Source: Frateuria terrea (GTDB lineage: Bacteria > Pseudomonadota > Gammaproteobacteria > Xanthomonadales > Rhodanobacteraceae). Taken from it: DNA of 64,000 nt. Shown here in pieces: positions 3,652 to 39,733 of the stretch. The notes beneath the pieces are model-generated. The model was not told the DNA's origin. It saw only the letters and a program-made list of their open reading frames with translations, and did no database searches. A program made the position numbers and the translations under genes. How positions within the stretch are numbered: position 1 is the stretch's first letter; each line of letters starts with the position of its first letter. The stretch spans positions 62,001 to 126,000 of the forward strand of contig NZ_FOXL01000003.1 in assembly GCF_900115705.1 (NCBI RefSeq). The letters are read 5' to 3'.

Positions 3652-5055
3652 TCAGTCTCCCATCGGGTCGTCGGGTGCCGACAGCGGACGCGCCGGCGTG
3701 CGGTGGTGGCTGCCATGCACCGGCGTGGCCGGTTGCCCGCGCTGCGGCGCCGGTACCGGGCCGTCGCGAAACAGCTTGAGCAGGTACCAGATGCCGGCGC
3801 CGAAGATGCCGATGTAGACCACCACGAACGTGATCAGCGAGGCGAGCACGCTACCCACTGGCAGCTTCGTCGCCGCCTGCGTGGTGCGCATCAGCCCCTG
3901 CACCACCCATGGCTGGCGGCCCACCTCGGCCACCCACCAGCCGGTCAGCAGCGCGATGAAGCCGGACGGGATCAGCGCCACCCAGGCCTTCAGGTACCAG
4001 CGCCCCGAGAACAGCGTGCCGCGCTTCCATCGCCACAGGCCCACCAGGGCCAGCGCCAGCATCAGCAGGCCGAGGCCGACCATGACGCGGAAGGAGAAGA
4101 ACGGGATCTTCACCGGCGGTCGCTCGTCGCGCGGGAAGTCTTTCAGTCCCCTGACCTGGCCGTTCCAGGAATGGGTCAGGATCAGGCTGCCCAGGTGCGG
4201 CACCTCCACCGCGTAGCGGTTGGCCTCCGCCTCCTCGTCGGGCCACGCGAACAACGCCAGCGGCACGCTGCTTTCGGTGGTCCAGCGTGCCTCGATCGCA
4301 GCCAGCTTGGCCGGCTGGTATTCGCGCACCTTCAGCCCCGCCATGTCGCCAATCACGATCTGGACCGGGATCACGATGGCCAGGAATGCCAGTGCCAGCT
4401 TGAGCATTGTCCCGGCACGGTCGACGAATCGCCGCTCGAGCAAATAGACGGCCGACACGCCGCCGACCACCATCGCGGTGGAAATGAACGCGGCCAGCAC
4501 CATGTGCGGCAGGCGCACCAGGAACGACGGGTTGAAGATGACCTGCCACCAGTCCGCCGGGTAGAACACGCCGTCGCGGATGGTGTAGCCCGCGGGCGTC
4601 TGCATCCAGCTGTTGGCCGACATGATCCAGAATGACGAGAGCAGCGTGCCCAGCGAAACCATGCAGGTGGCCAGGAAATGCATGCCGTCGCTGACTTTTT
4701 TCCAGCCAAACAGCATCACGCCCAGGAACGTGGCCTCGAGGAAGAACGCGGTCAGCACCTCGTAGTTGAGCAGCGGCCCGACCACGTTGCCGGCGACGAT
4801 CGAGAAGCCGGCCCAGTTGGTACCGAACTGGAAGCTCATCACGATGCCCGACACCACGCCCATGCCGAAGGCGACAGCGAAGATCTTCAGCCAGAAGAAA
4901 TACAGGTCGCGCCACAGGTCGGTGCGCTTGACCAGCCACACGCCCTCGATGAATGCCAGCCACGCCGCCGTGCCGATGGTGAAGGCGGGGAACAGGATGT
5001 GGAAGGACATCACCCACGCGAACTGCAGGCGCGAGAGGAACTCGGCAGTCGGCAT
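3652..5055 (-). CDS. cioA: Cyanide-insensitive (bd-type) ubiquinol oxidase subunit I
   Basis: A 467-residue membrane protein, the haem- and quinol-binding subunit of a bd-type oxidase. H19 in the first helix (SFHILFPAFTIG), the LNYEVLTAFFLEATFLG helix with its two conserved glutamates, and the methionine in FFSFRVMVGLG are the expected haem ligands and proton-path residues. The quinol-binding Q-loop is short (467 aa against about 522 in E. coli CydA), which marks the CioA subclass. The GWWVAEVGRQPW signature is intact. It is first in the operon; the 346-nt upstream region holds palindromic repeats and must also contain the promoter. Confidence 0.93.
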   Translation of the reverse strand: MPTAEFLSRLQFAWVMSFHILFPAFTIGTAAWLAFIEGVWLVKRTDLWRDLYFFWLKIFAVAFGMGVVSGIVMSFQFGTNWAGFSIVAGNVVGPLLNYEVLTAFFLEATFLGVMLFGWKKVSDGMHFLATCMVSLGTLLSSFWIMSANSWMQTPAGYTIRDGVFYPADWWQVIFNPSFLVRLPHMVLAAFISTAMVVGGVSAVYLLERRFVDRAGTMLKLALAFLAIVIPVQIVIGDMAGLKVREYQPAKLAAIEARWTTESSVPLALFAWPDEEAEANRYAVEVPHLGSLILTHSWNGQVRGLKDFPRDERPPVKIPFFSFRVMVGLGLLMLALALVGLWRWKRGTLFSGRWYLKAWVALIPSGFIALLTGWWVAEVGRQPWVVQGLMRTTQAATKLPVGSVLASLITFVVVYIGIFGAGIWYLLKLFRDGPVPAPQRGQPATPVHGSHHRTPARPLSAPDDPMGD

Positions 5056-24104: not shown

Positions 24105-25259
24105 TTACGGAGCCGACACCGCGGCGACGGAGTGCAGCCGGTGCGGGCTGAGCAGGGCGGCCGACAGGCCCGCATCCACCAGGTGGCCGGGCAACGGCCG
24201 CCCGAGCGCCAGGTTCGCGCACGACTCGCCCATGGCGGCACTGGTCTGGATGCCGTAGCCGCCCTGGGCGGCGACCCAAAAGAAGCCGGGCGCGTCGGGA
24301 GCGAAGCCACCGACCAGGTCGCCGTCGGCGACGAAGGAGCGCAGGCCGGCCCAGGTGCGGGTCGGACGGCGGATCTCCATGGTGGTCGCCTGCTCGATGT
24401 TGTGGATGCCCAGCGCGATGTCGTACTCCTCCGGCTGCACGTCGTGCGGATCGACCGGGTCGGCGTTGGCAGCCGAGCCGAGCAGCAGGCCGGCGTCGGG
24501 CTTGAAGTAGAACGTCTCGGCGATATCGCAGACGAACGGCCAGCGATGTATGTCCACGCCGGTGGGCGGTTCGAACACGAACGCCGAGCGGCGTTTGGGC
24601 TGCAGGCCCAGCGGCGCCACGCCCGCCATTCGCGCGACCTGGTCGGCCCAGGCGCCGGCGGCATCGAGCAGCAGCGGTGCGCGGTAGAGCGTTTCGCCGG
24701 CTTCGACCTCCCAGCCGGCGGCCGTGCGTTCGATCGCGCGGATCGCCACGTCCAGGCGCAACTGCCCGCCGCGCGCGCGCAGTTCGCGCAGGAAGCCCTG
24801 GTGCAGTTCGTTGACGTCGATGTCCGCGGCGCCAGGCTCGTGCATGCCGATCGCGGCCGCCTCCGGTCGCAGCACTGGCACCGCCGCGCGCAGACGGGCG
24901 GCATCGTGCAGTTCGAGATCGCGCGTGTACGGCAGGATCGCCTCGTATTCGGCGCGCACGCGGTCGGCATCTTCGGCCGTACCGATTACGGTGGCGCCGC
25001 GCGGCGTCAGTATCGGCGAACGGGCAAAGCCTTCCGGCGGGCTGACCAGGAACGGCCGCGTCGCGCGGGTCAGCGCGCGCACCTGCGGCGAGCCGTAGGT
25101 CTCGCTGAAGAGCGCCGCCGAGCGGCCGGTGGAGTGCATGCCGGCGTAGCTCTCGCGTTCCAGTACCAGCACGCGTGCGTGCGGCGCGAGGAAATAGGCC
25201 ACCGAGGCGCCGGCCATGCCGGCGCCGATCACGATCACGTCGGTTTCGATCGATTGCAT
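24105..25259 (-). CDS. dauA: FAD-dependent D-amino-acid dehydrogenase, D-arginine dehydrogenase (DauA) type
   Basis: A 384-residue flavoprotein that resembles Pseudomonas aeruginosa D-arginine dehydrogenase along its whole length: VIGAGMAGASVAYFLA (FAD loop), YAGMHSTGRSAALFSETYG, LGLQPKRRSAFVFEPP, FYFKPDAGLLLGSAANADP, TWAGLRSFVADGDLVGGF and FFWVAAQGGYGIQTSAAMGE. The family oxidises D-amino acids to 2-oxo acids and passes electrons to an acceptor. The actual D-amino acid used here is inferred from context: it is the last gene of the leftward arm of the candidate cell-wall-peptide island. Confidence 0.85.
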   Translation of the reverse strand: MQSIETDVIVIGAGMAGASVAYFLAPHARVLVLERESYAGMHSTGRSAALFSETYGSPQVRALTRATRPFLVSPPEGFARSPILTPRGATVIGTAEDADRVRAEYEAILPYTRDLELHDAARLRAAVPVLRPEAAAIGMHEPGAADIDVNELHQGFLRELRARGGQLRLDVAIRAIERTAAGWEVEAGETLYRAPLLLDAAGAWADQVARMAGVAPLGLQPKRRSAFVFEPPTGVDIHRWPFVCDIAETFYFKPDAGLLLGSAANADPVDPHDVQPEEYDIALGIHNIEQATTMEIRRPTRTWAGLRSFVADGDLVGGFAPDAPGFFWVAAQGGYGIQTSAAMGESCANLALGRPLPGHLVDAGLSAALLSPHRLHSVAAVSAP

Positions 25260-25328: not shown

Positions 25329-26588
25329 TTACCTCTCGCCCGCTTCCTGCGCCGGAACCACGTCGCGCGATTGCCGCGCCACCACACTGGTGGCGGTGAC
25401 GTCGGCGGTGACGTTGCCCAGCGTGGCAAAGGCGTCGGGCAAAGTGTCGACCGCCAGCATCAGGCCCAGCGGGCCGACCGGCAGGCCCATCGACTGCGCC
25501 ACCGGCAGGTTGGTGGCGATGAAGGTCACCGCGCCAGGCAGGCCCACCGAGCCCAGGCTGATCACCACCGCCAGTACCGCGCCGGCGATCAGCTGGCTGG
25601 CGGACAGGTCGACACCGTAAGCCCAGGCAATGAACGCGGCCGAGGTCAGGTATTGCACCGGGCTGGTCAGGCGGCACAGCGTGACCGCCATCGGAAGCAC
25701 CAGGGCGTTGACCTGCTTCGGATAGCCCAGCCTCTGCTCGGCGCTTTCCAGCATCGCCGGCAGCGAGGCGAGCGAGGACTGCGTGCTGATCGCCACCGCC
25801 TGGGGCGGCAGCAATGCGGCGACGAAGCGGCTGAATTTCTCGCCGCCCCAGAACACCGCCACGCCGTACATCATCGCGGTGACCGCCAGGTAGAGCAGGA
25901 TCTCCGCCAGCACGTACACGCCCAGCGCGCTCAGCATGCTAAGCCCCGAGCGTGCGCACACCCCCAGGATCAGCGCGAACACGCCCAGCGGCGCCACCCA
26001 CAGCACCCAGCGCACGACCACGATCATCGCGTCGGCGATCGCCTGGAAGAACTCCACCAGCATGCTGCGGCGCGCGGGCGCGATGCGCGTCAATGCGAAG
26101 CCCAGGAACAATGCGAATACCACCAGCGGCACCATCGCGCTCTGCGCGGCGGCCATGATGGCGTTGCTGGGAATCATCGCGATCAGCGATGCCGACCAGC
26201 TCACAGGAGCGGTCCGCGCAGCGCCGCTCACCACCGCGTGGTCCAGTGCGCTGCGCAAGGCCGGGTTGTGCGGGAACAGCGAGAACAGCGCTGGCGCAGC
26301 GGCGGCGGTAAACAGCGCACCGAGCAGCAGCAACAGGATGAACACCACGATCGCGCGCCGCGCGATGCGGCCGGACGCGGCGGCGTCGGTCGCCGTGTTG
26401 ACGCCGACCACCACCAGCGCCAGCACCAGCGGCACGACGGTCATCTGCAGCGCGTTCAGCCACAGCTTGCCGACCGGCTGGACGATGTCGGCCACCTGCG
26501 TGGCGACGAGCGGATTCCAGGCCGCCAGCGCCAGGCCGAGGATGGCGCCGGCAGCCAGGCCGCCCAGCACGCGTGCGGTAGGACTCAT
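25329..26588 (-). CDS. Dicarboxylate/amino acid:cation symporter (DAACS/GltP type)
   Basis: A 419-residue polytopic inner-membrane protein. The re-entrant hairpin serines are seen in AISTQSSLASLPAML, the cation/substrate helix as LPMAVTLCRLTSPVQYL, and the second hairpin as LGSVGLPGAVTF. GltP/DctA homologues import glutamate, aspartate or C4-dicarboxylates with H+ or Na+. The usual NMDGT of TM7 is replaced by TLCRLTSP, so the substrate may differ. The ATG overlaps the upstream TGA (ATGA). Context suggests uptake of an amino acid released from cell-wall peptides. Confidence 0.85.
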   Translation of the reverse strand: MSPTARVLGGLAAGAILGLALAAWNPLVATQVADIVQPVGKLWLNALQMTVVPLVLALVVVGVNTATDAAASGRIARRAIVVFILLLLLGALFTAAAAPALFSLFPHNPALRSALDHAVVSGAARTAPVSWSASLIAMIPSNAIMAAAQSAMVPLVVFALFLGFALTRIAPARRSMLVEFFQAIADAMIVVVRWVLWVAPLGVFALILGVCARSGLSMLSALGVYVLAEILLYLAVTAMMYGVAVFWGGEKFSRFVAALLPPQAVAISTQSSLASLPAMLESAEQRLGYPKQVNALVLPMAVTLCRLTSPVQYLTSAAFIAWAYGVDLSASQLIAGAVLAVVISLGSVGLPGAVTFIATNLPVAQSMGLPVGPLGLMLAVDTLPDAFATLGNVTADVTATSVVARQSRDVVPAQEAGER

Positions 26589-27349
26589 CGGGCGACTCCG
26601 CCCAGCACGGGCAGATGCCACTGGCCCTGCAGCTTGGCGTAAGCAGGCGTGGGCAGCAGCACGAACACCGGATGCTCCTCCGGGCGCAGCCACGCGAGCA
26701 GGCGATGCATCAGCGAAGGCGTCATGGCCGTGCAGCCGGTGGTGGCGTCCACCGGCGAATTCCACAGATGGGCGAAGATGCAGCTTCCGCCCAGCGGTCG
26801 TTGCTGCCTGTTGTGCTCGATCACGAAGCCCTGGCGATAGCGCTGGTCGCCGTGCACGTGGATGTCGCGGCGCATGGGTTCGGTGGAACCCTCGACCGCT
26901 TTCTCGCCCACCACCTTGGCATCGACGATGCGGTTGTACTGCGGCGAGCCGCTGACGTCGACGCAGTAGTCGGTGGCGCTCAGCGCGCGGTACGGCATCG
27001 CCGTGTCCGCCTTGGCGGCGTAGCCGAACGCCTCGCCGATGTCGAACACGCCGGCCGGGCTGCGCAGGTCGCCTTCGCGCTTGACCGGGCCGTCGTGGCG
27101 GGCAGCGTTGAGCCCGAGCCCCCAGCCGGCGCCGGCCCTGCCGATCGTGACCGGGGCTGGCTGGCCGATTTCCTTCCAGCCATCGGCGGTGCGCGCGTAG
27201 GTGCGCAAGGTGCCGTGGTCGACGTTCCAGCCGGGCGTGGTGACGACGACCATCTGGCGGGCGTCCGACCAGGCGGTGGTTTCGTCCGTGGCGGCGAAGG
27301 CGCTGCCGGCAAAGGCGAGCGCGAGAGTCAGCAGCACGCAATTGCGCAT
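26585..27349 (-). CDS. Exported YkuD-fold L,D-transpeptidase-like protein
   Basis: A 254-residue protein with a signal peptide (LLTLALAFAGSAFAA). The catalytic YkuD motif is present as DIHVHG, then GGSCIFAHLW and TTGCTAM with the active cysteine in S/T-x-G-C. It matches the COG3786 branch (one domain, no LysM). Such enzymes cross-link DAP-DAP bonds in the periplasm or attach lipoproteins; some may act as carboxypeptidases or endopeptidases. It is translationally coupled to the symporter gene, which suggests a role in handling peptidoglycan peptides rather than general wall synthesis. Confidence 0.82.
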   Translation of the reverse strand: MRNCVLLTLALAFAGSAFAATDETTAWSDARQMVVVTTPGWNVDHGTLRTYARTADGWKEIGQPAPVTIGRAGAGWGLGLNAARHDGPVKREGDLRSPAGVFDIGEAFGYAAKADTAMPYRALSATDYCVDVSGSPQYNRIVDAKVVGEKAVEGSTEPMRRDIHVHGDQRYRQGFVIEHNRQQRPLGGSCIFAHLWNSPVDATTGCTAMTPSLMHRLLAWLRPEEHPVFVLLPTPAYAKLQGQWHLPVLGGVAR

Positions 27350-27637: not shown

Positions 27638-28489
27638 TCAGGGCTCCAGCATCAGCTGGATGCGGTCGAGGTTGGCGAGCAGCTGCGCATGGCGGTCGTC
27701 CTGGCCTTCGCACAGCAGCACGAACACGCAGTCGAGCAGGTGCTGCAGTGCCGACTGGTAGAGCAGCGGCTGGATGTACGGCCGCTCGTCGTGCGCGCTG
27801 ACCAGCAACTGCATGTCGGCCAGCGTGCGCAACGGGTTGGCGGTGTGCCGGGTGACGGTAATCACCTGCCCGCGCCGTTCGCGGAAATAGCGCGCGATCT
27901 TGCACAGCGCCGGATGGTTGCCGTGCTCGGAGAACACCAGCAGCACGTCGCCAGCACCGGCCGCCGACACATTGGCAGTCATCCGTGCCGTGTCAAAGTT
28001 GTGCACGGTGAGGATGCCCAGCAGCGACAGCCGCAGCGCGAAGTTGCGCGCGTAGATGTCGTCCTCGCCCAGGCCAATCATGAAAACCTTGCCCGCGCGC
28101 CCGGCCTGTTCGATCGCCGCGGCAATGGCGTGGATCACTTCCGGCGGATTGATCAGCCGGGTGGCCTCCTCCGCCTCGGACTTGCGCCGCCACAGCGCGC
28201 CTGGGCCTTCCTCGCCGCTCTCGCCGGCCCGCGCCAGCGCGGGCGCGTCACCGTTGTCGGCGCGGGCGATCGCCTCGCTGACCGAGTACTTGAGATCTGG
28301 ATATCCCTTGAATCCCAGCTTCTGGGTGAACTTGACCACGCTGGACTGGCTGATGCCCAGGGCATTGGCCAGCTGTTGCGAGGAGTAGTCGCGCAACAGG
28401 TGCGCGTTTTCCAGGATGAAGTCGGCCACACGCCGCTCGACCGCCGACATCTGGTCGCGTTCCGAGCGGATTTTGACCAGCGGCGACAT
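27638..28489 (-). CDS. MurR/RpiR-family transcriptional regulator
   Basis: A 283-residue regulator. An N-terminal HTH_6 (DYSSQQLANALGISQSSVVKF, about residues 35-55) is followed by a SIS sugar/ligand domain from about residue 120 (AGKVFMIGLGEDDIYARNFA; FSEHGNHPALCKIARYF). The classical SxSGxT of SIS is FSEHGNH here, so the ligand may not be a simple sugar phosphate. Its start overlaps the epimerase stop by 1 nt (TGATG). MurR of E. coli senses MurNAc-6-phosphate; a wall-derived ligand would fit the neighbours. It is the only regulator in the island. Confidence 0.88.
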   Translation of the reverse strand: MSPLVKIRSERDQMSAVERRVADFILENAHLLRDYSSQQLANALGISQSSVVKFTQKLGFKGYPDLKYSVSEAIARADNGDAPALARAGESGEEGPGALWRRKSEAEEATRLINPPEVIHAIAAAIEQAGRAGKVFMIGLGEDDIYARNFALRLSLLGILTVHNFDTARMTANVSAAGAGDVLLVFSEHGNHPALCKIARYFRERRGQVITVTRHTANPLRTLADMQLLVSAHDERPYIQPLLYQSALQHLLDCVFVLLCEGQDDRHAQLLANLDRIQLMLEP

Positions 28490-29586
28490 CAGTCGTCGAT
28501 CCTCTCCAGGCCCCGGATCTCGCGGATGCCGAGGCCTGGGGCGTCGGTCACGGAGATTTCCGATTCATTGAAGATTACCCCACCGTCGACCGGGTTGAAC
28601 TGCGCCAGCGACGGCCCGTCCAGGTCGATCTTGCTGATCGCGTCGGCGCGCGCCACCGCCACGTGCACGGCGGCCGCCACGCTGATCGAGGTCTCCAGCA
28701 TGCAGCCGATCATGCAGTCGATGCCGTGCAGCTGCGCGATGTCGGCGATCTTGATCGCGTTGGAGATGCCGCCGGTCTTCATCAGCTTGATGTTGATGAT
28801 GTCGGCCGCGCGCATGCGGATCAGCTCGATCACCTCCATCGGGCCGAACACGCTCTCGTCGGCCATCACCGGCGTGTGCACGCGCTCGGTGACGTAGCGC
28901 ATGCCTTCGAGGTCGCGCGCCTTGACCGGCTGCTCGACCAGTTCCAGCTTGATGCCGGCCTCTTCCAGCGTCTGCAGCGCGTAGACCGCCTGCTTGGCGG
29001 TCCAGCCCTGGTTGGCGTCCAGGCGCAGCAGCGCGCGACCCTCGACCGCCGCGTAGATCGCCTTGACCCGATCGATGTCGACGCCGATGTCCTTGCCGAC
29101 CTTGATCTTCAGCGACTCGAACCCGCGCTCCACCGCGGCCACCGAATCGGCCACCATCTTGTCGATGTAGTCCACGCTGATGGTGATGTCGGTGGTGATC
29201 ACCGGATCGCCACCGCCCAGCAGCTTGTACAGCGGCGCGCCGTAGAGCTGGCCCCACAGGTCGTAGATGGCGATCTCCACCGCCGCCTTGGCGCTGGAGT
29301 TCTTCTCCATCGAGCCCTGCACCAGGTGGGTGAGGCGGTTGAGGTTGGCGATCTCCTGCCCGATCAGCCGCGGCGAGATGTAGTGGCGGATGGCATCGAC
29401 GATCGAGCCGTGCGTGTCGCCGGTGATCACCGCGGTGGCCGGCGCCTCGCCATAGCCGACCTGGCCGGTGTCGGTGTGCACCATCACCACGATGTCTTCC
29501 ACCTGGTTGACGGTGCGCAGCGCGGTCTTGAAGGGTGTCTTCAAGGGCACCCGCAGCATGCCGAACTGGATGTCTGTGATCTTCAT
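28489..29586 (-). CDS. Dipeptide epimerase (L-Ala-D/L-Glu epimerase type, enolase superfamily)
   Basis: A 365-residue muconate-lactonising-subgroup enzyme. Catalytic lysines K160 and K162 (SLKIKVG), Mg ligands D190 (LDANQGW), E218 (LVEQP) and D243 (ADES), and the opposite lysine K267 (NIKLMK) are all present. The D321-L-D323 pair (KIDLDGP) is the DxD motif that holds the dipeptide ammonium group in Ala-Glu epimerases. It converts L-Ala-D-Glu, released from murein, to L-Ala-L-Glu in the cytosol. Other dipeptide specificities exist in the family, so the exact substrate is inferred. Confidence 0.88.
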   Translation of the reverse strand: MKITDIQFGMLRVPLKTPFKTALRTVNQVEDIVVMVHTDTGQVGYGEAPATAVITGDTHGSIVDAIRHYISPRLIGQEIANLNRLTHLVQGSMEKNSSAKAAVEIAIYDLWGQLYGAPLYKLLGGGDPVITTDITISVDYIDKMVADSVAAVERGFESLKIKVGKDIGVDIDRVKAIYAAVEGRALLRLDANQGWTAKQAVYALQTLEEAGIKLELVEQPVKARDLEGMRYVTERVHTPVMADESVFGPMEVIELIRMRAADIINIKLMKTGGISNAIKIADIAQLHGIDCMIGCMLETSISVAAAVHVAVARADAISKIDLDGPSLAQFNPVDGGVIFNESEISVTDAPGLGIREIRGLERIDD

Positions 29587-29675: not shown

Positions 29676-31091
29676 TCAGGGCCGCATGCGCACGTTGCTC
29701 GTCATGTGGTCGATGAACGTGGAGTCCCTGCCGTAGAGCATCGGCAGCAGCGGCGTCACCGAGACCGCGTTGAGCTTGACGTGCCGGGTCGAGCCGTCGG
29801 GCATGCGGTAGCTCATGCCGAGCACGTCGTGGATCACCCACGGCTGGCCCTTCCACTGGCCCAGCGAGAGCATCACGTGGCCGGGGATGTAGACCAGGTC
29901 GCCGAGCTGGAGCGCGTGCGCCGCCTGCAGGCGTTCGTCGTGCGAGCTCGACTGGGTGAACGTGTGCTTGGCGAAGGCCGGGCTCACGCCCTGGCTGGAG
30001 GTGTTGCGCGGCATCTGCACGCCCATCGAGCGATAGACGTCCGAAACGAAGCCGGAGCAGTCCCGCCCGTCGTAGGCATGGCCCCAACCATAGCGCTCGC
30101 CCAGGAACTTGAACGCCTGGGTGATCAGGTTGCGCGGGGTCAGCGGCAGGTAGTCGGCGGCGGTGTCGGCGTTCTTCTGGATCAGCGCGGGGCTGAAGTC
30201 GAGCGAGCCGTCGGCCTTGCGCACCGGCAGCTCCACCACGTGCGCGGCATAGGGCGTCTGACCGTTGACCGCCTGGTCCGGCGGCAGGTCGGTGAGCACC
30301 GGCACGCGCGTGCCCATGTCCAGCTCCACCTGGGAGACCGCCGGCGCCTCGCGCGTATAGACGGTATAGACCTTCGCACCGGTCACGATGCGATACGGCG
30401 TCCTGTCGGCATAGCCGAACACGGCGGTCTTGCTGCCCTCGGCGATGTTGGCCGCCTCGGTCCAGGCGGCGTAGCGCGGGCTCACCACGAACAGCCAACG
30501 GCCGTCGCGGCTGGCGTGCGCGATCACCACCGGCGTACCCGGAAATTCGGCCGTCTCCTGGAAACGATCGATGTCGGTGTCGCCCGGATGGCTGAACACG
30601 CGCAACGTGGTGGGGAACGTCCGCAGTGCCGCGCGGCGCACCACCATGCCGTACCGCGTCGCCTGGCTCGCCGGGATCGTATCGAGCGCCCGCGCCGCGA
30701 CGATGGCGTCGAGCGTGGCCTGCGGTACCGGTTTGCCGTCGACGTCGTAGAGCGGCTTGGCAGGCGGCTGGGCCAGATCCTGGATCCAGCCGCGCACCTG
30801 CGCCGCACTCAAGGTGGCCGGCAGCTTGCGCAGCTCGTGCATGGACTTGTCCTGCGCGAACAGCGCCTCGTTCTGCGCCTCGATCTGCCGGCGGCTCATG
30901 ATCTCCCGGTCCGGCTGCGGCTGCAGGCCGATCCAGAAGGCGGGCGTCAGCTGCGCCTCGCCCACGCCCAGCACGCCCGAAGGCGGTACCGGCAGCGCCG
31001 GGACCTGGTCGCGCGCGTGCAATGGCGAAGCCGCCAGCAACAGCGCCAGCAGCACGGAAGTGAGGGAAGTTCGCATGATCGTGGTCCTCAT
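29676..31091 (-). CDS. Exported NlpC/P60 endopeptidase with SH3 domains
   Basis: A 471-residue protein with a signal peptide (LLALLLAASPLHA). An N-terminal stabilising segment (to about 150) and SH3-like domains (about 150-300: GMVVRRAALRTFP, GRWLFVVSPRYAAW) precede an NlpC/P60 domain. The triad is C345 (DGRDCSGFVSDVY), H405 (PGHVMLSLG) and H421 (VIHDVLG). This architecture is that of secreted gamma-D-Glu-L-diamino-acid endopeptidases that cut cell-wall stem peptides. The product L-Ala-D-Glu is what the next gene's epimerase would use. Confidence 0.88.
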   Translation of the reverse strand: MRTTIMRTSLTSVLLALLLAASPLHARDQVPALPVPPSGVLGVGEAQLTPAFWIGLQPQPDREIMSRRQIEAQNEALFAQDKSMHELRKLPATLSAAQVRGWIQDLAQPPAKPLYDVDGKPVPQATLDAIVAARALDTIPASQATRYGMVVRRAALRTFPTTLRVFSHPGDTDIDRFQETAEFPGTPVVIAHASRDGRWLFVVSPRYAAWTEAANIAEGSKTAVFGYADRTPYRIVTGAKVYTVYTREAPAVSQVELDMGTRVPVLTDLPPDQAVNGQTPYAAHVVELPVRKADGSLDFSPALIQKNADTAADYLPLTPRNLITQAFKFLGERYGWGHAYDGRDCSGFVSDVYRSMGVQMPRNTSSQGVSPAFAKHTFTQSSSHDERLQAAHALQLGDLVYIPGHVMLSLGQWKGQPWVIHDVLGMSYRMPDGSTRHVKLNAVSVTPLLPMLYGRDSTFIDHMTSNVRMRP

Positions 31092-31095
31092 GGCC

Positions 31096-32247
31096 TTACG
31101 TTCCGGCCAGCATCGACATGACCGACGCCACCACCAGGCCGAAGCCGGTGCCCAGTATGTAGCCCAGCAGCGCGAGCAGGATGCCGACCGGCACCAGCGC
31201 GCGCGAATAGCTTGCCGCCAGCACCGGCGTGGCGGCTACGCCGCCGATGTGCGCCAGCGAGGAGATCCCGCACAGGTAAAGGTCGAAGTGGAACAGCCTG
31301 GCAAAGCCGGCCAGGATCACGGCGTGGATGGAAATGATGGTGACGCCGCAGAGCAGGTACAACGGCGCGGCGCCGATGCCGTGGAAGTTGCTCTGCGAAG
31401 CGAGCACGGCCACCACGCTGATCAGCATCGCGCTGGAAATCGTGCTGGCGCCGGGAAACCGCGCCAGTGGCGTGTGCGCCGCGACCAGGCCCGCGCCGGT
31501 GGCGAGCAGGATGGTCCAGGTGGTGCCGCTGATCATGGTCGAGGTCGGCAGATAGCCGGCCAGCCACGCGCTCAGCGCCGCCACGCCCAGCGCGAGTCCC
31601 AGCCACAGCAGGACTGATTCGTAGTTGGTGGGCCCGGTCGCCTTCGTCTCTGCCACCTGCAGGTCGCCGCTGGATGTGGCGCGCGTCCAGCGGTTGAAGG
31701 CCGGCGCCACGCGGGCCAGCGCGAACAGCACCGCCACCCACGTCGAATAGCAGAGCGCGTCGGTGAGCAGGCTCATCGCCAGGTGCTGGTCGGACATGCC
31801 GATCGCCTGCTTGACCGCAATCATGTTTGCCGTGCCGCCCACCCAGCTGCCCGAGAGCGCCGCCAGCGGATGCCAGGCATCGCCCGGCAGCCAGCGGTGA
31901 TAGATCAGGAAGGTGCTGATGAAGGCGATGAACAGCGCCACCGAGGTGCAGGCGAACACGCCCAGCACGCGCGGCCCGAGCGCGAAGATTGCGCGCAAGT
32001 CGCAGTTGATCATCAGCAGGAACAGCAGCGCGGGCACCATGTGCGAGACCAGCATCGCCTGCGCGGTGTGGATCTCCTCGTTGACCTGCCACAGGCCCGA
32101 CACCGCCAGCGCGGTCACCAGCAGGTAGGTGAAGACGATCGGCGGCAGCACGTTGAACACGCGCCAGCCGAAGCGCCGCTCCATGGCCGGGAACACGCCG
32201 GCGGCAAGCAGCATCACGGCCAGGTACGGCCATACCGTGTGGATCAC
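31096..32247 (-). CDS. DUF819 family integral membrane protein
   Basis: About 383 residues with ten or more hydrophobic helices and the family motifs SGSWVGGTANMIAVKQAIG and CGISSLAHIGGVAATPVLAASY. I place the start at GTG 32247, which has GAGGGGGA 4 nt upstream; a TTG 33 nt further upstream is less likely. DUF819 (YjcL-type) proteins look like secondary transporters of unknown substrate. As first gene of the leftward arm, 4 nt before the NlpC/P60 gene, it is a candidate inner-membrane permease for murein-derived di- or tripeptides. Confidence 0.8.
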   Translation of the reverse strand: MIHTVWPYLAVMLLAAGVFPAMERRFGWRVFNVLPPIVFTYLLVTALAVSGLWQVNEEIHTAQAMLVSHMVPALLFLLMINCDLRAIFALGPRVLGVFACTSVALFIAFISTFLIYHRWLPGDAWHPLAALSGSWVGGTANMIAVKQAIGMSDQHLAMSLLTDALCYSTWVAVLFALARVAPAFNRWTRATSSGDLQVAETKATGPTNYESVLLWLGLALGVAALSAWLAGYLPTSTMISGTTWTILLATGAGLVAAHTPLARFPGASTISSAMLISVVAVLASQSNFHGIGAAPLYLLCGVTIISIHAVILAGFARLFHFDLYLCGISSLAHIGGVAATPVLAASYSRALVPVGILLALLGYILGTGFGLVVASVMSMLAGT

Positions 32248-32541
32248 TTCGTCCCCCTCGATGGGCGCCCGGCCGGGCAACCTCTACTCATTTGCTTCAT
32301 CCCCTGCGGCGCCCCGATCCACCGCGGCCCTTCCGTGAAGGCGGGAGCCCATTGTGATCCTGCCGCCAAGGCTGCGGATGGGATCGCCCGTACGAAGGAA
32401 AAACACGCCGGGTATACGGAGTTCGCTCGTCGTCGGGAATAGGTCATTCCTCATAGATTGACATGAAGCATAAATTATTGACCACCTTTTGCAAGCGTGC
32501 TACACAAGACCTTGATGCCAACTGGCGGGGGCGTTCGCGGG
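32248..32541. promoter_or_regulatory. Divergent control region of the peptide island
   Basis: A 294-nt gene-free stretch between the two arms. It holds the palindrome GGAATAGGTCATTCC at 32436-32450 and, 8 nt beyond, TTGACA (32458-32463). A better-spaced candidate rightward promoter is TTGACC (32478-32483), 17 nt, TACACA (32501-32506). No clear leftward promoter was found by eye. The stretch around 32455-32500 is noticeably more AT-rich than its surroundings, as promoters often are in such genomes. Confidence 0.5.
32436..32450. promoter_or_regulatory. Candidate operator GGAAT-N5-ATTCC
   Basis: A perfect 5-bp inverted repeat with a 5-nt spacer directly upstream of the rightward promoter candidates. 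Dimeric RpiR-family regulators bind palindromes of this general GAAT/ATTC type. The only regulator of the island is of that family. The assignment is by position and shape only. Confidence 0.4.
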
Positions 32542-34053
32542 ATGACGAAGGTGCCAGGCAAGCAACGCAAACACGAAACGAGCCACCGGCGCGCGCTGGC
32601 AGGCGCCGTGCTCGCCGGCCTGCTGTGCTGCGCGGTGCCGGCGCTGGCCAGCCTGCCGCCGTCCGCGCCGCCGGCGATCGTGGCGCAGATCGACCACGGG
32701 CATTTCGACGCCGCCCGCGCCGCCATCGCGCAGGCGCTGGCGCAGCCCGGCCTCACGCCCGAAGCGCGCCAGGCGCTCGAGTTCCAGCGGGAGCGCATGC
32801 GCCGCATCCTGCTCGACTTCTCGCTCACGGCCGAGGACGCGAAGGCACGCATCCGCAAGCAGATCCCCGACCTCACCGAGGCCGAGTTCGCGCGCTGGGA
32901 CGATGCCGGGCTGATCGAGCACATGGTGATCGACGGCCGCACGCTGTATTTCAACCGTGGCCCGTCCAACCTGTTCCTGCTCAGCGCCGAGGCGCGTGAT
33001 CGCCGCGGCGCGCCGCCGACCTCGCCCCCCAACGGCCCGAACGAAACGCTCAACGACCACCACCGCGCCGCCCTCCGAGAGGCACTCCAAAGCGGCAAGA
33101 CCGGCGTGCTGCCGATGCGTGTGCGGGTGACGCAGACGCTCACGGTCGACCCCGATGCCGTGCCCGCCGGCGAAACGCTCAAGGCATGGATCCCCTACCC
33201 GCGCGCCATCCCTGGCCAGCAGGACGACATCCGGCTGGTCGCGAGCCAGCCGGCCGGCGCGCGCGTCGCGCCGGTCGACACGCTGCAGCGCACCGCCTAC
33301 ATGGAAGCGCCGGCCAGGGCCGGCCAGCCGACCGTATTCAAGCTCACCTATGAGGTGACGCTGCGCGCGCAATACCATCGGATCGATCCTGCCAAGGTCG
33401 TCCCGGCCACCATCACGCCCGAGTTGAGGCCCTTCGTCGAGCAGCGCCCGCCGCACATCGTGTTCACCGACGACATGCGTGCGTTCTCGCGCAAGGTCGT
33501 GGGCGACGAGAAGAATCCCTACCGCATCGCGCAGAAGCTGTTCGCCGCCGTCGACAGGATCCCCTGGGCCGGCGCGCGCGAGTACTCGACCATCAGCAAC
33601 ATCGGCGACTACACGCTGCACGCTGGCCATGGCGACTGCGGCGAGCAGACCCTGCTGTTGCTCACGCTGCTGCGCATGAACGGCATCCCGGCGCGCTGGC
33701 AGTCCGGCTGGATGTTCTCCGACGGCAGCTACGACAACATCCACGACTGGGGCCAGGTCTACTTCGCGCCCTACGGCTGGGTGCCCGTCGATGTCACCTT
33801 TGGCCAGCTCGAGCCCAAGCCGGGCGACGACCCGCGCCTGCGCTGGTTCTACCTGGGCGGTCTGGACGCCTACCGCATCGCCTTCAACGACGACTACAGC
33901 CGCCCGTTCGTGCCGGCCAAGCAGTTCCCGCGCTCGGAGACGGTGGACTCGCAGCGAGGCGAAGTCGAGTGGCGCGGCGGCAACCTCTATTTCGACAAGT
34001 GGGATTACCACTTCGACTGGCAGTTCCTGCACGGACGCGACAACAAGAAGTAA
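32542..34053 (+). CDS. Exported transglutaminase-like protein
   Basis: About 503 residues from ATG 32542; in-frame GTG 32497 and ATG 32515 lie within the promoter stretch and are less likely. A signal peptide (ALAGAVLAGLLCCAVPALA) is followed by a helical region and then a transglutaminase-core domain: HAGHGDCGEQTLLLLTLL (catalytic Cys), NGIPARWQSGW, then YDNIHDWGQVYF (His) and GWVPVDVTFG (Asp). The triad looks intact. Bacterial members act as proteases, amidases or cross-linkers. It is the first gene of the rightward arm, just before the TonB receptor. Confidence 0.8.
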   Translation: MTKVPGKQRKHETSHRRALAGAVLAGLLCCAVPALASLPPSAPPAIVAQIDHGHFDAARAAIAQALAQPGLTPEARQALEFQRERMRRILLDFSLTAEDAKARIRKQIPDLTEAEFARWDDAGLIEHMVIDGRTLYFNRGPSNLFLLSAEARDRRGAPPTSPPNGPNETLNDHHRAALREALQSGKTGVLPMRVRVTQTLTVDPDAVPAGETLKAWIPYPRAIPGQQDDIRLVASQPAGARVAPVDTLQRTAYMEAPARAGQPTVFKLTYEVTLRAQYHRIDPAKVVPATITPELRPFVEQRPPHIVFTDDMRAFSRKVVGDEKNPYRIAQKLFAAVDRIPWAGAREYSTISNIGDYTLHAGHGDCGEQTLLLLTLLRMNGIPARWQSGWMFSDGSYDNIHDWGQVYFAPYGWVPVDVTFGQLEPKPGDDPRLRWFYLGGLDAYRIAFNDDYSRPFVPAKQFPRSETVDSQRGEVEWRGGNLYFDKWDYHFDWQFLHGRDNKK

Positions 34054-34116: not shown

Positions 34117-37100
34117 ATGAGCAGCAAGGTTTGGAACATGCGCAGGACCGTGCTCGGCACGGCACTCGGGCTGGCGCTGGCCGCCTTCGGCGCGCCGCCG
34201 GCGCACGCCGCCAACAACGACGGCGCCGTCGCCGGCCACACCCAGGCCGGCGCCACGGTCACGGTGACCAATCCGGACACGGGCCTGACCCGCAGCGTGG
34301 TCGCCGACAGCGACGGCAGCTATCGCCTGCCGTTCCTGCCGGTCGGCCAGTACACCATCAGCGCGAGCAGCGGCGGCCAGCAGGTCGGCCCGACGCGCAA
34401 CGTCACGGTGGCGCTGGGCACCACCACCACGGTGGACCTGGGCGCGGTGAACGCGACCAGCCTGGCCACCATCAACGTCACGAGCTCGGTGCTGCCGGTG
34501 ATCGACGTCAGCTCCACCGAGTCGGCCACGATCGTCTCGCGTGCCGACCTGGTGCGCCTGCCGGTCGACCAGAACGTGACCTCGGTGGCGCTGCTTGCGC
34601 CGGGCGTGGTCAAGGGCAACGCCGGCTTCGGCGGCATTTCGTTCGGCGGCTCGTCGATCGCCGAGAACGCCTTTTACGTCAACGGCCTCAACGTTACCGA
34701 CTTCTACAACCGCAACGGCTTCTCCGAGGCACCGTTCGCCTTCTACGACCAGTTCCAGGTCAAGACCGGCGGCTACTCGGTGGAATTCGGCCGCACCACC
34801 GGCGGCGTGGTCAACGCGGTGGCACGCTCTGGCACCAACGAGTTCAAGGGTGGCGCCGAGATCACGATGGAGCCGGGCAACTGGCATTCGCACGGCCATG
34901 ACTATTACTTCGACGGCGAGCGCTACTACACCTCCAGCCGCGACCAGGATTCACTGATCAAGACCAACGTCTGGGCATCCGGCCCGATCGTGAAGGACAA
35001 GCTGTTCTTCTTCGCCATGTACGAGGCGCGCGGCGCCAGCCCGCGCAACACCGACAACGTCGGCACCACGATGACCGACCACAGCGCCAACCAGGGCTTC
35101 TGGGGCGGCACCATCGACTGGAACATCACCGACAACAACACGCTGTCGCTGATGGCGTTCTCGGACAAGAACAAGGACACCGGCGACGTCTACAGCTACA
35201 ACTTCGACACCAACACGCGCATTGCCAAGACCAACGAGGTCTACACCGACACGGGCGGCCGCAACTGGGCGCTGACCTGGACCAGCTACCTGACCAACGA
35301 CCTGTCTATGAAGCTGATGTACGGGCGCAACCAGCGCCAGGCGAACATCAGCTCGCAGTTGGACACCGAGTGCAACCGCGTGGCGGTGGAGGCCGGCGTG
35401 CCGCTGCCCGGCGACCTCCCGCTGGGCTGCACCAGCAGCTCGCAGGTCGCTTCACGCGAGGACACCCGCAAGCAGTACCGCGCCGACTTCGAATGGACGC
35501 TGGGCGATCACCTGCTGCGCTTCGGCTATGACCACGAGGTCGACACGTCCGACTATGCGCGCCGCTATCCGGGCCCCGGCGGCTACTACTACAACGTGTA
35601 CAACGCTCCCGACAACGGCCAGGTCACCAACTCCAATGGCGGCGGACGCGTACCGGTAGGCGACGTGGCCTACGTGCGCGTGCGCCGCTACGAGATCGCC
35701 GGCACCTTCGCGACCAAGAATGCCGCCTGGTATCTGGAGGACAACTGGCATCTCACCCCGAACCTGGTGCTCAACGCCGGCCTGCGCAACGACAGCTTCG
35801 ACAACCAGGATGCCGCGGGCCGCAGCTACATCAAGATCGACCAGCAGATGGCGCCGCGCCTGGGCTTCTCCTGGGACATGAAGGGGGACGGCACGACCAA
35901 GCTGTTTGGCAACCTGGGCCGCTACTACCTGCCGGTGGCCAACGTGATCAACATCAAGCAGGCCGGCGGCCTGCTCGACGAGCGCTCGGCGCACCGCTTC
36001 CTCGGCTGGCAGACGCAGGAGATCAACGGCTTCCAGTACGCCATGCCGATCGTCGGCGATCCGCTGCCGGGCAGCCACACCGACACCTCGCAGGGTGACG
36101 GCACGGTGGGCGACCTGCGCGCCGAGGTCGACCACAACATGGATCCGGTCTACCAGGACGAGGCGATCCTCGGCTTCCAGCAGATGATCGACGCCAGCTG
36201 GTCGTGGGGCGTCAGCGGCACCTACCGCCGCCTGCACAACGCCATCGATGACATGGAGATCAGCGCCACCGCACAATGCGGCGAGAACGGCTACATCGGC
36301 TGGGTGATGGCCAATCCGGGCAAGAAGGTCACCGTGTGGGGCGACACCAACTGCGACGGCACCGCGGACGGCTACGTCACCGTGGACACGTCCAAGGAAG
36401 GCTGGGCCATGTACCGGCAGGATGGCGTGGATGCCAATGGCGACCCGATCATGACCTACATTGGCCAGCGCGGCTGGGTGAAGCCCAAGCGCACCTACTC
36501 CGCGCTCGAGTTCCAGCTCGACCGCGCATGGGACGAGAAGTGGGCGTTCAACGCCTCCTACGTACTGGCCTGGAACCGCGGCAACGCCGAGGGCCCGGTC
36601 AATTCCGACACCGACTTCGACGACACCGGCCGCACCGAGAACTTCGACGATCCGTGGGTGAACTTCGGCGGCAACGGCTACCTGCCCAACGATCGCCGCC
36701 ACCAGCTCAAGCTGCGCGGCACCTACGCGATCACGCCGCACTGGCAGCTCGGCGCCAACGCCGACGTCCACTCCGGCGGCCCCATCACCGGCTTCGGCGT
36801 GGGCAACCCGTTCGACGCGAGCAACTACCACAGCTACTACATCTGCGTGGAGAACTGTGATTCGGACTTCTCCGCCGAGCGCGTCTACACGCACTCGGCG
36901 CGTGGCGCCCAGGGCCGCCTGCCGTGGACCTACACCTTCGACGCCAGCCTGAGCTACATCCTGCCGTTCGAGGGCGGCGGCAACCTGCGCGTGAAGCTGG
37001 CGGTCTACAACCTGCTCAACCAGCAGCGCAAGGTGCAGGTGGACCAGGACCTGCAGAGCGCGATCTCCAACCAGACCGACTCGACCTTTGGATTGCCGAT

Positions 37101-37152
37101 CGGCTTCCAGTCGCCGCGCTTCACCCAGCTGACGGTGAGCGTGGACTTCTAA
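34117..37152 (+). CDS. TonB-dependent outer-membrane receptor with carboxypeptidase-like N-terminal domain
   Basis: A 1011-residue protein. A signal peptide (LGLALAAFGAPPAHA) is followed by a CarboxypepD_reg-like domain (AGATVTVTNPDTGLTRSVV, GSYRLPFLPVGQYTI), a plug domain (NAFYVNGLNVTDFYNRNGF; YSVEFGRTTGGVVNAVARSG) and a beta barrel ending in SVDF, the aromatic C-terminus recognised by BAM. Oar-like receptors of this design often take up peptides or oligosaccharides. Its position suggests uptake of cell-wall peptides or muropeptides; that is inference. Confidence 0.92.
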   Translation: MSSKVWNMRRTVLGTALGLALAAFGAPPAHAANNDGAVAGHTQAGATVTVTNPDTGLTRSVVADSDGSYRLPFLPVGQYTISASSGGQQVGPTRNVTVALGTTTTVDLGAVNATSLATINVTSSVLPVIDVSSTESATIVSRADLVRLPVDQNVTSVALLAPGVVKGNAGFGGISFGGSSIAENAFYVNGLNVTDFYNRNGFSEAPFAFYDQFQVKTGGYSVEFGRTTGGVVNAVARSGTNEFKGGAEITMEPGNWHSHGHDYYFDGERYYTSSRDQDSLIKTNVWASGPIVKDKLFFFAMYEARGASPRNTDNVGTTMTDHSANQGFWGGTIDWNITDNNTLSLMAFSDKNKDTGDVYSYNFDTNTRIAKTNEVYTDTGGRNWALTWTSYLTNDLSMKLMYGRNQRQANISSQLDTECNRVAVEAGVPLPGDLPLGCTSSSQVASREDTRKQYRADFEWTLGDHLLRFGYDHEVDTSDYARRYPGPGGYYYNVYNAPDNGQVTNSNGGGRVPVGDVAYVRVRRYEIAGTFATKNAAWYLEDNWHLTPNLVLNAGLRNDSFDNQDAAGRSYIKIDQQMAPRLGFSWDMKGDGTTKLFGNLGRYYLPVANVINIKQAGGLLDERSAHRFLGWQTQEINGFQYAMPIVGDPLPGSHTDTSQGDGTVGDLRAEVDHNMDPVYQDEAILGFQQMIDASWSWGVSGTYRRLHNAIDDMEISATAQCGENGYIGWVMANPGKKVTVWGDTNCDGTADGYVTVDTSKEGWAMYRQDGVDANGDPIMTYIGQRGWVKPKRTYSALEFQLDRAWDEKWAFNASYVLAWNRGNAEGPVNSDTDFDDTGRTENFDDPWVNFGGNGYLPNDRRHQLKLRGTYAITPHWQLGANADVHSGGPITGFGVGNPFDASNYHSYYICVENCDSDFSAERVYTHSARGAQGRLPWTYTFDASLSYILPFEGGGNLRVKLAVYNLLNQQRKVQVDQDLQSAISNQTDSTFGLPIGFQSPRFTQLTVSVDF

Positions 37153-37217: not shown

Positions 37218-38504
37218 ATGAGCGCCTCCTCCGCCAACGACTCACCACGCGTAACCGCAGCCCAACCCGCATTCGACGGCGTGGATCTGCACGCGCTGGC
37301 CGGGCGCCTGGGCACACCACTTTACGCCTACTCCGCCACCGCGATTCGCCAACGCATCGCCGGGCTCCAGACCGCCCTGGCCGGACTCGACGCCACCATC
37401 TGCTACGCGGTGAAGGCGAACAGCAACCTGGCGATCCTCGGCCTGATGGCGGACGCAGGGCTCGGCGCCGACATCGTTTCGGCTGGCGAACTCAAGCGCG
37501 CGCTGGCGGCGGGCATTCCCGCCGCACGCATCGTCTTTTCGGGCGTCGGCAAGACCGACGACGAGATCGATGCGGCGCTCGAGGCCGGCATCGCCCGCTT
37601 CAACGTCGAGTCGCTGGACGAGCTGCACGCGATCGAGCGCGTGGCAGGGACGCGTTCCGCCACGGCGAACGCCGCCGTGCGCATCAACCCCGACGTCGAT
37701 GCGCTCACCCACGCCAAGATCTCCACCGGCCGCGCCGAGAACAAGTTCGGCGTCAGCATTGCCGAGGCGCGCCGCTGGTTCGCCGAACGCGCGCAGCTGA
37801 GACATGTCCGGCTCGATGGCCTGCACGTGCACATCGGCTCGCAGATCCTCGACCTCGATCCGTTTCGGCTGGCGCTGCACCGCGTCGCCGCGTTCTGGCG
37901 CGAGCTGGTGCAGGCCGGCCACCCGCTCGCCAGCATCGACGTCGGCGGCGGGCTGGGCGTGCGCTACCGCGCCGGGCAGGACCAGCCGATCGACGCCGGC
38001 GACTACGCCGCCGTGGTCCGCGAGGCGCTGGCCGGTTTCGACGGCCGCCTGCTGCTGGAACCGGGCCGCTACCTGGTGGCCGAGGCCGGCGTGCTGCTCA
38101 CGCGCGTGCTGCGCATCAAGGAAGGCACCGAACGACGCTTCCTGGTGCTCGACGCGGCGATGAACGACCTGCTGCGGCCCAGCCTCTACGACGCCTGGCA
38201 CGACATCGTGCCGGTCTCGCCCGAACCGCGTCCGCCCGCCACCTACGACGTCGTCGGCCCGGTCTGCGAGACCGGCGACACCTTCGCCCGCGGTCGCGAG
38301 CTGCCCGAATGCGCGCCCGGCGACCTGCTCGCCATCCAGGGCGCCGGCGCCTATGGGGCCTCGATGGCCTCCACCTACAACTCGCGCCCGCTCGTCGCCG
38401 AGGTCCTGCTCGACGAGGGCCGCTACGCGGTCATCCGGCGCCGGCAAACGTACGAAGAGATGGTCGCCGGCGAACAACCGGCGCAGGATTGGCAGGCCCC
38501 CTGA
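37218..38504 (+). CDS. lysA: Diaminopimelate decarboxylase
   Basis: A 428-residue PLP enzyme of the alanine-racemase-fold decarboxylases. K66 (CYAVKANSN) forms the Schiff base, HVHIGSQILDLDPF and the glycine loop SIDVGGGLGVRY bind PLP, LLEPGRYLVAEAG and GPVCETGDTFA line the active site, and YGASMASTYNSRPLVAEVL completes the LysA pattern. It makes L-lysine from meso-DAP. In this context it would consume DAP released from murein. ATG 37218 is used; TTG 37206 would add four residues. No signal peptide, so cytosolic. Confidence 0.9.
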   Translation: MSASSANDSPRVTAAQPAFDGVDLHALAGRLGTPLYAYSATAIRQRIAGLQTALAGLDATICYAVKANSNLAILGLMADAGLGADIVSAGELKRALAAGIPAARIVFSGVGKTDDEIDAALEAGIARFNVESLDELHAIERVAGTRSATANAAVRINPDVDALTHAKISTGRAENKFGVSIAEARRWFAERAQLRHVRLDGLHVHIGSQILDLDPFRLALHRVAAFWRELVQAGHPLASIDVGGGLGVRYRAGQDQPIDAGDYAAVVREALAGFDGRLLLEPGRYLVAEAGVLLTRVLRIKEGTERRFLVLDAAMNDLLRPSLYDAWHDIVPVSPEPRPPATYDVVGPVCETGDTFARGRELPECAPGDLLAIQGAGAYGASMASTYNSRPLVAEVLLDEGRYAVIRRRQTYEEMVAGEQPAQDWQAP

Positions 38505-38518
38505 CCGCAGGAACACGC

Positions 38519-39733
38519 ATGAACCGACTTCGCCACCTCGCCCTCCTCGCCCTGCTCGGCAGCACGTTCCCGGCGTTCGCGCAGATGGCGCCGCCCGATC
38601 CGCCGATCACCATCGACACTCACGTCGATATCCCGTTCACCTACATGCGCGAGGCGCGCTTCGACGCCGGCAAGGACACGCCGCTGCTGGTGGATCTGGG
38701 CAAGATGGAGCGCGGCGGACTGAATGCCGCGTTCTTCGTGATCTGGGTACCGCAGCACAAGCTCGATGCGGCCGGCTACGCCAAGGCGGTGAACCAGGCC
38801 GAAGAGAAGTACGAGGCGATCGGCCGCATGCTGATGATGTACCCGGACCGCATCCGCCTGGCCACCTCGCCGGAACAGGCCATGGCCAACCGCAAGGCCG
38901 GACTGCTCTCGGCGATGATCGGCATCGAGAACGCCTATTCGCTCGGCCACGACCTCAACCGGCTGGACGCCGCCTACGACCGCGGCGCGCGCTACGTCGG
39001 GCTGGTCCACGTGGGCAACAACGACCTGTGCACCAGCTCGCTGCCGGACAAGGACAACGGCGAGCCGGCGATGAACAGCAAGGGCGACCACGGCATGACC
39101 GATTTCGGCCGCCAGGTGGTCGCGCGCGCCAATGCGCTGGGCATCATGGTCGACATCTCGCACGCCTCCGACGCCTGCGTGCACGACGCGCTGGCGGTGT
39201 CGAAGGCGCCGCTGATCGCCTCGCACTCCGGGGCCCGCGCCGTGCTCGACCATCCGCGCAACCTGCCCGACGACCTGCTGCGCGCGATCGCCGCCAAGGG
39301 CGGCGTGATCCAGGCGGTGGCCTACAAGGAGTTCCTCAAGAGCGACCCGGGCCGCGAGGCGGCCGAGAAGAAGCTGCAGGCCGAGGTCGCGCACGCGGCG
39401 GGCGACAAGGAATACGACAGCGACAAGCACGACTACCTGCCCGCGATGGCCGCGGGCATGGCGAAGATCCAGGAAAAGTTCCCGCTGCCCACGGTCGACG
39501 ATTACGTCAAGCAGATCCGCCACATCGCCGAGGTCGCCGGCATCGACCACGTCGGCATCGCCTCGGACTTCGACGGCGGTGGCGGCATCACCGGCTGGAA
39601 GGACGCCAGCGAGACCCGGAACGTCACCGCCGCCCTGCGTCGCGCCGGCTTCAGCGACGCCGACATCGCCAAGATCTGGGGCGGCAACCTGCTGCGCGTG
39701 TGGCGCGAGGTGGAGCGCGATGCACACCATTGA
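38519..39733 (+). CDS. Exported M19 (renal-type) dipeptidase
   Basis: A 404-residue zinc dipeptidase with a signal peptide (LALLALLGSTFPAFA). Metal ligands are H35 and D37 (IDTHVDIP), a bridging glutamate in IGIENAYSLG, and histidines in VDISHAS and IASHSGARAV; SDFDGGGG carries the C-terminal aspartate. M19 enzymes accept dipeptides whose C-terminal residue is D-configured, such as L-Xaa-D-Ala, and so suit wall-derived dipeptides. It starts 15 nt after the lysA stop. Confidence 0.9.
   Translation: MNRLRHLALLALLGSTFPAFAQMAPPDPPITIDTHVDIPFTYMREARFDAGKDTPLLVDLGKMERGGLNAAFFVIWVPQHKLDAAGYAKAVNQAEEKYEAIGRMLMMYPDRIRLATSPEQAMANRKAGLLSAMIGIENAYSLGHDLNRLDAAYDRGARYVGLVHVGNNDLCTSSLPDKDNGEPAMNSKGDHGMTDFGRQVVARANALGIMVDISHASDACVHDALAVSKAPLIASHSGARAVLDHPRNLPDDLLRAIAAKGGVIQAVAYKEFLKSDPGREAAEKKLQAEVAHAAGDKEYDSDKHDYLPAMAAGMAKIQEKFPLPTVDDYVKQIRHIAEVAGIDHVGIASDFDGGGGITGWKDASETRNVTAALRRAGFSDADIAKIWGGNLLRVWREVERDAHH

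Follow-up and report, generated by a model that had tools for sequence, protein, structure and literature searches.

A DUF819 membrane protein encoded beside murein-peptide enzymes in Frateuria terrea as a candidate importer of L-Ala-D-Glu

Known routes of murein peptide recovery and the Frateuria locus

In Escherichia coli, murein tripeptide is imported via MppA-Opp. The E. coli MpaA/YcjG/PepD pathway, as outlined in PMC2954226, leads from L-Ala-D-Glu to L-Ala-L-Glu and on to amino acids, steps that it shares with the pathway proposed here; it differs in that the tripeptide is imported and cut inside the cell, and in its endopeptidase and importer. With the Bacillus Ykf/Dpp and Ykf/OppA pathway, the locus described here shares a YkfB-type epimerase adjoining an NlpC/P60 endopeptidase, and with the B. 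cereus pathway also the secreted endopeptidase and a postulated import of dipeptide. According to a proposal in the same source, murein peptides are cut outside the cell in B. cereus and L-Ala-gamma-D-Glu is taken up for YkfB(C), with an oppA gene alongside; the source also describes the B. subtilis permease for free murein peptides as unidentified (PMC2954226). The importer genes in Bacillus are of the Dpp/OppA ABC type, whereas here a putative secondary transporter of the DUF819 family is found, and no OppA-type binding protein. Cleavage outside the cell and dipeptide import having already been proposed for B. cereus, what is new here is the proposal that DUF819 acts as importer. In Neisseria meningitidis DUF819 likewise lies beside a peptidase, of family M15; this pair was reported, with no function assigned, in 75 of 128 genomes (PMC12671195). 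In the accessible texts of literature outside subscription journals, no transport function or murein-dipeptide role was found for DUF819, PF05684, YjcL or COG5505.

The window analysed is a stretch of 64,000 nucleotides from the F. terrea genome. The DUF819 gene (31096..32247, minus strand) is an open reading frame for a 383-residue membrane protein, residues 12-380 of which match PF05684 with 257.1 bits (cut-off 27; profile positions 3-379 of 379), and no second DUF819 gene occurs in the genome of 3.84 Mb. It starts with GTG at 32247, and ATG or GTG occupies the equivalent position in the ten relatives compared. The stop codon ends at 31096 and the first ATG of the NlpC/P60 gene lies at 31091, leaving a gap of 4 nt (19 nt for an alternative in-frame ATG at 31076). 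Coordinates and Pfam matches thereby agree with the original prediction that DUF819 heads an arm with NlpC/P60 and dipeptide epimerase genes, 4 nt from the former.

DUF819 is followed on the minus strand by an NlpC/P60 plus SH3b1 protein with a secretion signal, a putative gamma-D-Glu-diamino acid endopeptidase (29676..31091; PF12913, PF00877); an L-Ala-D/L-Glu (dipeptide) epimerase of the enolase superfamily without signal peptide (28489..29586; MR_MLE); a MurR/RpiR-family regulator with HTH_6 and SIS domains (27638..28489; NCBIfam MurR/RpiR 135.4 bits, under the cut-off); a secreted protein tentatively labelled by a weak YkuD (L,D-transpeptidase) match (26585..27349; PF03734, 17.2 bits, cut-off 23.4); an SDF (sodium:dicarboxylate/glutamate) symporter (25329..26588; PF00375, 261.9 bits; GltP model 132.2 bits, under the cut-off); and an FAD-dependent amino-acid-oxidase-like oxidoreductase of DAO type (24105..25259; PF01266, 166.3 bits). 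The divergent arm on the plus strand comprises a transglutaminase-like gene of uncertain start (32497..34053; PF01841), a TonB-dependent receptor with a carboxypeptidase-regulatory domain (34117..37152), a PLP-dependent, LysA-like decarboxylase of the ornithine/DAP/arginine decarboxylase family (37218..38504; PF02784, PF00278) and an M19 dipeptidase with a secretion signal (38519..39733; PF01244, 319 bits), and then a serine beta-lactamase-like protein. No promoter or terminator matches were found near the divergent start. Loci of Lysobacterales and Paraglaciecola have conserved the secreted protein with the weak YkuD match next to the epimerase; it is a candidate divergent L,D-transpeptidase or carboxypeptidase.

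The best PDB match of the epimerase is the L-Ala-D/L-Glu epimerase 1jpm (344.8 bits), which we take to be YkfB of B. subtilis. Lysines of the Frateuria protein align with K162 and K268 of YkfB, named as its catalytic lysines (PMC5808125), as is typical of a YkfB-type enzyme. An NCBIfam epimerase model is the best match as well, though under the equivalog cut-offs (NF041118, 257.9 of 500; NF011708, 110.2 of 343). The NlpC/P60 protein matches best to 3m1u (E 2.3e-30) and resembles YkfC in combining SH3b and NlpC/P60 domains, with the Cys- and His-bearing segments aligned with those of 3m1u; its putative cleavage site is between D-Glu and the diamino acid. Secretion signals were read in the sequences of the NlpC/P60 protein and the M19 dipeptidase and not in that of the epimerase, which bears out the earlier argument that the epimerase is cytosolic while its substrate is made in the periplasm.

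We consider it rather probable that DUF819 at this locus is a CitS/AspT-type elevator secondary importer of the murein dipeptide L-Ala-D-Glu, since the gene lies beside enzymes that make or use this dipeptide in many distantly related bacteria. Outside the cytoplasm, the secreted NlpC/P60 protein would cleave stem peptides at the link from D-Glu to the diamino acid. The dianionic L-Ala-D-Glu would then be carried inward by DUF819 in the inner membrane, acting as a symporter or exchanger; in the cytosol the YkfB-type epimerase would convert it to L-Ala-L-Glu, and dipeptidases would then split the product. What was observed is the gene order with its conservation, the presence or absence of secretion signals and the predicted fold; that the protein transports at all, and in which direction, which substrate and with which ion, is our inference.

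Association of DUF819 with dipeptide enzymes across genomes

Among 147 genomes of the own family, DUF819 is present in 60, of which 57 carry the window clade and 3 another clade, the latter being called by higher PF05684 scores (327-363 bits) and lack of an epimerase, rather than by a tree. An epimerase scoring more than 500 bits is found in 64 of the 147. In all 57 window-clade genomes it lies on the same contig and strand as DUF819, 1401-1759 nt downstream, which argues for a non-random arrangement. The epimerase is also missing from 83 of the 90 genomes without window-clade DUF819, and no epimerase above 500 bits occurs in the 3 genomes with the other clade; 7 of the 64 epimerase-bearing genomes have no DUF819.

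A wider set of 83 clade loci was composed of the best 80 of 578 relatives from a scan of named genomes with a seven-sequence alignment and 3 loci of a gammaproteobacterial family (f46), neighbours being detected with window-derived and iterated profiles. The 80 loci are those most like the window protein and hence do not form an unbiased set, unlike the family, class and Clostridia sets, for which genomes were chosen regardless of DUF819. The clade loci span Pseudomonadota, Campylobacterota, Bacillota, Spirochaetota and others. An epimerase lies within 2.5 kb at 59 of the 83: Lysobacterales 28/28, Campylobacterota (including L136) 9/24, Bacillota 10/11, Spirochaetota 2/2, Desulfobacterales, Rifleibacterium and Wallbacteria 3/3, f46 3/3, Alteromonad-type loci 4/8 and Robiginitomaculum 0/4 (where NlpC/P60 is near in 4/4). 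L144 (Lutibacter; Bacteroidota according to NCBI) is counted here with the Bacillota, with which it groups in the tree. The association across phyla with epimerase and NlpC/P60 genes, proposed as a check along with the original prediction, was found: one or the other lies within 5.5 kb at 68 of the 83 loci, many of which are on short contigs, and, where the contig extends 4 kb or more to each side, at 58 of 62. As for the four exceptions, the genome of L135 holds a strong epimerase elsewhere, those of L137 and L141 none, and that of L129 weak ones only; two Campylobacterota genomes carry the window clade and lack the epimerase.

Stop-to-stop reading frames overlap in three gammaproteobacterial loci, and in Fusobacterium vincentii (L212:2727-5161), a representative of a further phylum, the epimerase and DUF819 frames abut at 3959. 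A plasmid collection yielded 7 DUF819 matches, with an epimerase neighbour in 1 of four examined (Fusobacterium). The upstream genes of L093, L097, L104 and L147 were considered as conserved neighbours and rejected, being of similar size, but unrelated.

In the class-level set, 17 of 276 genomes contain DUF819, namely 7/7 of those with an epimerase above 400 bits and 10/269 of the others (Fisher p 9e-10, kinship ignored); the two genes are adjacent in 4 of the 7 and apart in 3. In the Clostridia set (236 genomes), DUF819 matches occur in 34 genomes, 32 of them over the cut-off, and an epimerase (E <= 1e-60) in 17, of which 7 have any DUF819 and 5 have it adjacent (p 0.003). The conservation in 57/57 family genomes, the counts at the 83 loci and the p values rule out chance adjacency. 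The importer role of DUF819 is now a well supported genomic prediction and no longer a guess from a single locus.

The original prediction had further argued that no importer of a classical type is present. This holds within the window, where the open reading frames of at least 180 codons with at least 6 predicted helices comprise CydAB, a CLC channel, MASE1, RND, SDF and DUF819 only, with no peptide importer among them. Genome-wide the premise fails, as two POT/PTR2 proteins and one AmpG are encoded, and the argument had also missed the SDF symporter in the arm of DUF819 itself. No SBP_bac_5 protein (OppA/DppA/MppA) was found in the own genome, and such proteins are present in 11 of 14 control genomes. 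The DUF819 protein itself has no match to the POT, OPT or Opp/Dpp families (PF00854, PF03169, PF00496/PF00528).

Replacement of classical importers by DUF819 may be approached by comparing epimerase neighbourhoods. Around 14 clostridial epimerase genes without adjacent DUF819 (100 proteins within 4.2 kb), SBP_bac_5 was matched 5 times, BPD_transp_1 4 times and OPT 3 times; ten candidates scanned singly gave SBP_bac_5 (L168, L175), OPT (L174), BPD_transp_1 (L178) and six other proteins. None of these three families is among the 25 listed for 87 neighbours of 15 epimerase genes with DUF819 (11 Bacillota-type loci plus L104, L109, L127 and L032), a set hand-picked from wider taxa and thus inexactly matched to the clostridial one. 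Families with a single member were perhaps unlisted, so that one of each might be present; in that least favourable case, p for the contrast is 0.03.

Predicted fold and competing assignments

An AlphaFold2 model of the DUF819 protein was computed from 61 sequences (mean pLDDT 89.3, pTM 0.87) and compared with known structures by Foldseek and VIA-align. It aligns over 358 residues with CitS, a symporter of Na+ and citrate (Z 24.7, rmsd 4.2), and over 340 residues with AspT, which exchanges aspartate for alanine (Z 22.0); Na+/H+ antiporters score far lower, at a Z of about 12. Helix breaks at 136-138 and 335-338 coincide with fully or almost fully conserved GG motifs. By these GG tips and the CitS/AspT match, the modelled structure is of the CPA/AT re-entrant elevator fold, and PMC8396727 places DUF819 in the CPA/AT re-entrant group, to which it also assigns AspT and glutamate symporter families. 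CitS (of the 2-hydroxycarboxylate transporter family) and AspT, which have anionic substrates, share the fold over nearly the whole DUF819 chain, but differ in sequence (10-14% identity). DUF819 is the sole Pfam match of the protein, and no PDB chain was matched at E <= 1, which sets it apart from the 2HCT (CitS) and AAEx (AspT) families proper. The predicted fold speaks for secondary anion transport and is silent on substrate, direction and coupling. Residues specific to the window clade include T139, S284 and Y347.

The idea of a murein-peptide permease, with which the analysis began, is upheld in that the association is strong and crosses phyla; its tripeptide version fares less well. L-Ala-D-Glu is the more likely substrate, because the endopeptidase acts outside and because DUF819 elsewhere lies beside dipeptide enzymes, while genome neighbourhood does not separate the dipeptide from its constituent amino acids. 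Against an exclusive role of DUF819 speak the SDF symporter in the operon, the two POT proteins and AmpG, and the 7 of 64 epimerase operons without DUF819. The SDF symporter might itself import the dipeptide, or D-Glu freed outside the cell by the secreted M19 dipeptidase and then oxidised by the DAO-type enzyme, with DUF819 otherwise employed. SDF is kept in 5 of the 7 family operons that lack DUF819 (the other 2 lack SDF too), and in 2 of 3 same-order genomes, in which NlpC/P60 and epimerase occur with no adjacent DUF819. However, outside the 28 Lysobacterales loci SDF was detected at only 2 of 55 clade loci, weakly and more than 3 kb off, whereas DUF819 stays with the epimerase; moreover, import of D-Glu would leave the dipeptide epimerase unneeded. 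We regard this assignment as unlikely.

The cargo of DUF819 could also be the second product of the NlpC/P60 enzyme, meso-DAP or a peptide that contains DAP, or else a free amino acid, as the adjacency to NlpC/P60 and the LysA-like decarboxylase in the opposite arm would suggest. Yet many clade loci combine an epimerase with no NlpC/P60 nearby (within 2.5 kb, 10/11 against 1/11 in Bacillota and 3/3 against 0/3 in f46), and other subclades adjoin M19, M20 and M15 dipeptidases, which makes such a cargo quite unlikely. An AspT-like exchange of precursor and product (for instance dipeptide in and alanine out), or export, draws on the AspT score, which is near that of CitS; but the fold tells neither coupling nor direction and the symporter CitS matches equally, and we hold this reading to be improbable. 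Import of L-Ala-D-Glu by DUF819 remains our preferred reading. If true, it would assign a specific substrate to a widespread family of transporters for which none is known, and would provide bacteria that lack OppA-type proteins, as here, with a means of scavenging wall peptides. To our knowledge, a dipeptide carrier would also represent a new substrate class for the CitS/AspT fold.

Other DUF819 subclades and accessory genes

A murein-peptide role cannot be extended to all DUF819 proteins. At 14 other-clade loci of the class set, epimerase, NlpC/P60, M19 and M20 are all missing nearby, and no peptide-related pattern appeared among ten neighbours scanned. The 11 most divergent clostridial genes (L198-L208) likewise have no epimerase, M19 or M20 nearby. 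In neighbours pooled from loci including these 11, a GH67 alpha-glucuronidase and a 2-hydroxyacid dehydrogenase recur, which suggests that this divergent branch may handle sugar acids.

We analysed 34 of the 35 clostridial DUF819 genes over the cut-off (G572, which scores 33 bits and contains a stop, was omitted). A dipeptidase (M19, M20 or M15) or an epimerase is a neighbour at 20 of these 34 loci, in several subclades: an epimerase at 5 (L093, L173, L177, L209, L210), M19 at 9 (L179, L181, L182, L183, L185, L187, L190, L193, L194), M20 at 3 (L186, L189, L192) and M15 at 3 (L195, L196, L197). M19 also lies 1.4 kb from DUF819 in L184, and the remaining 13 loci are L188 (at a contig end), L191 and L198-L208. 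By a rough Poisson estimate, 0.04 M19 neighbours would be expected against the 9 observed. The M15, M19 and M20 identities were confirmed by Pfam on examples; the M20 protein of L186 passes the cut-off for beta-Ala-His dipeptidase and that of L113 (outside the 34) the one for PepV dipeptidase, and the M19 enzymes of L179, L187 and L193 have no signal peptide.

On a DUF819 tree of 110 rows, built by a quick method with SH-aLRT values only, genes with the same kind of partner tend to group together, the partner label changing 21 times as compared with 52 times after shuffling. L173 and L177, both linked to an epimerase, lie beside M19-linked genes in a well supported part of the tree apart from the window clade, so that the link between DUF819 and epimerase may have arisen more than once, the long branches in the tree being a caution. 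We tentatively put forward, at somewhat below even probability, that DUF819 proteins form a family of secondary dipeptide permeases on the CitS/AspT elevator fold. Its subclades would be tuned to wall-type dipeptides according to the neighbouring enzyme (L-Ala-D-Glu with epimerase, D-Ala-D-Ala-like with M15, others with M19 or M20), and would replace Opp/Dpp and OPT at the murein-dipeptide step in many bacteria.

A TonB-dependent receptor like that at 34117-37152 (compare L148-L154) is found at most Lysobacterales DUF819 loci. None of the 7 family genomes with an epimerase and no DUF819 has the receptor at this locus, which hints that receptor and DUF819 may act as a pair in uptake across the outer and inner membranes.

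In Clostridia, a protein of about 108 amino acids recurs between or beside DUF819 and epimerase (L093:11182-11505, L097:11185-11517, L098:11256-11579, L099:11236-11559, L113:12619-12942). The copy in L098 is a DUF3870 protein (PF12986), and this family accounts for 6 of the 87 epimerase neighbours with DUF819 and 3 of the 100 clostridial ones without. DUF3870 is possibly a novel part of the dipeptide pathway.
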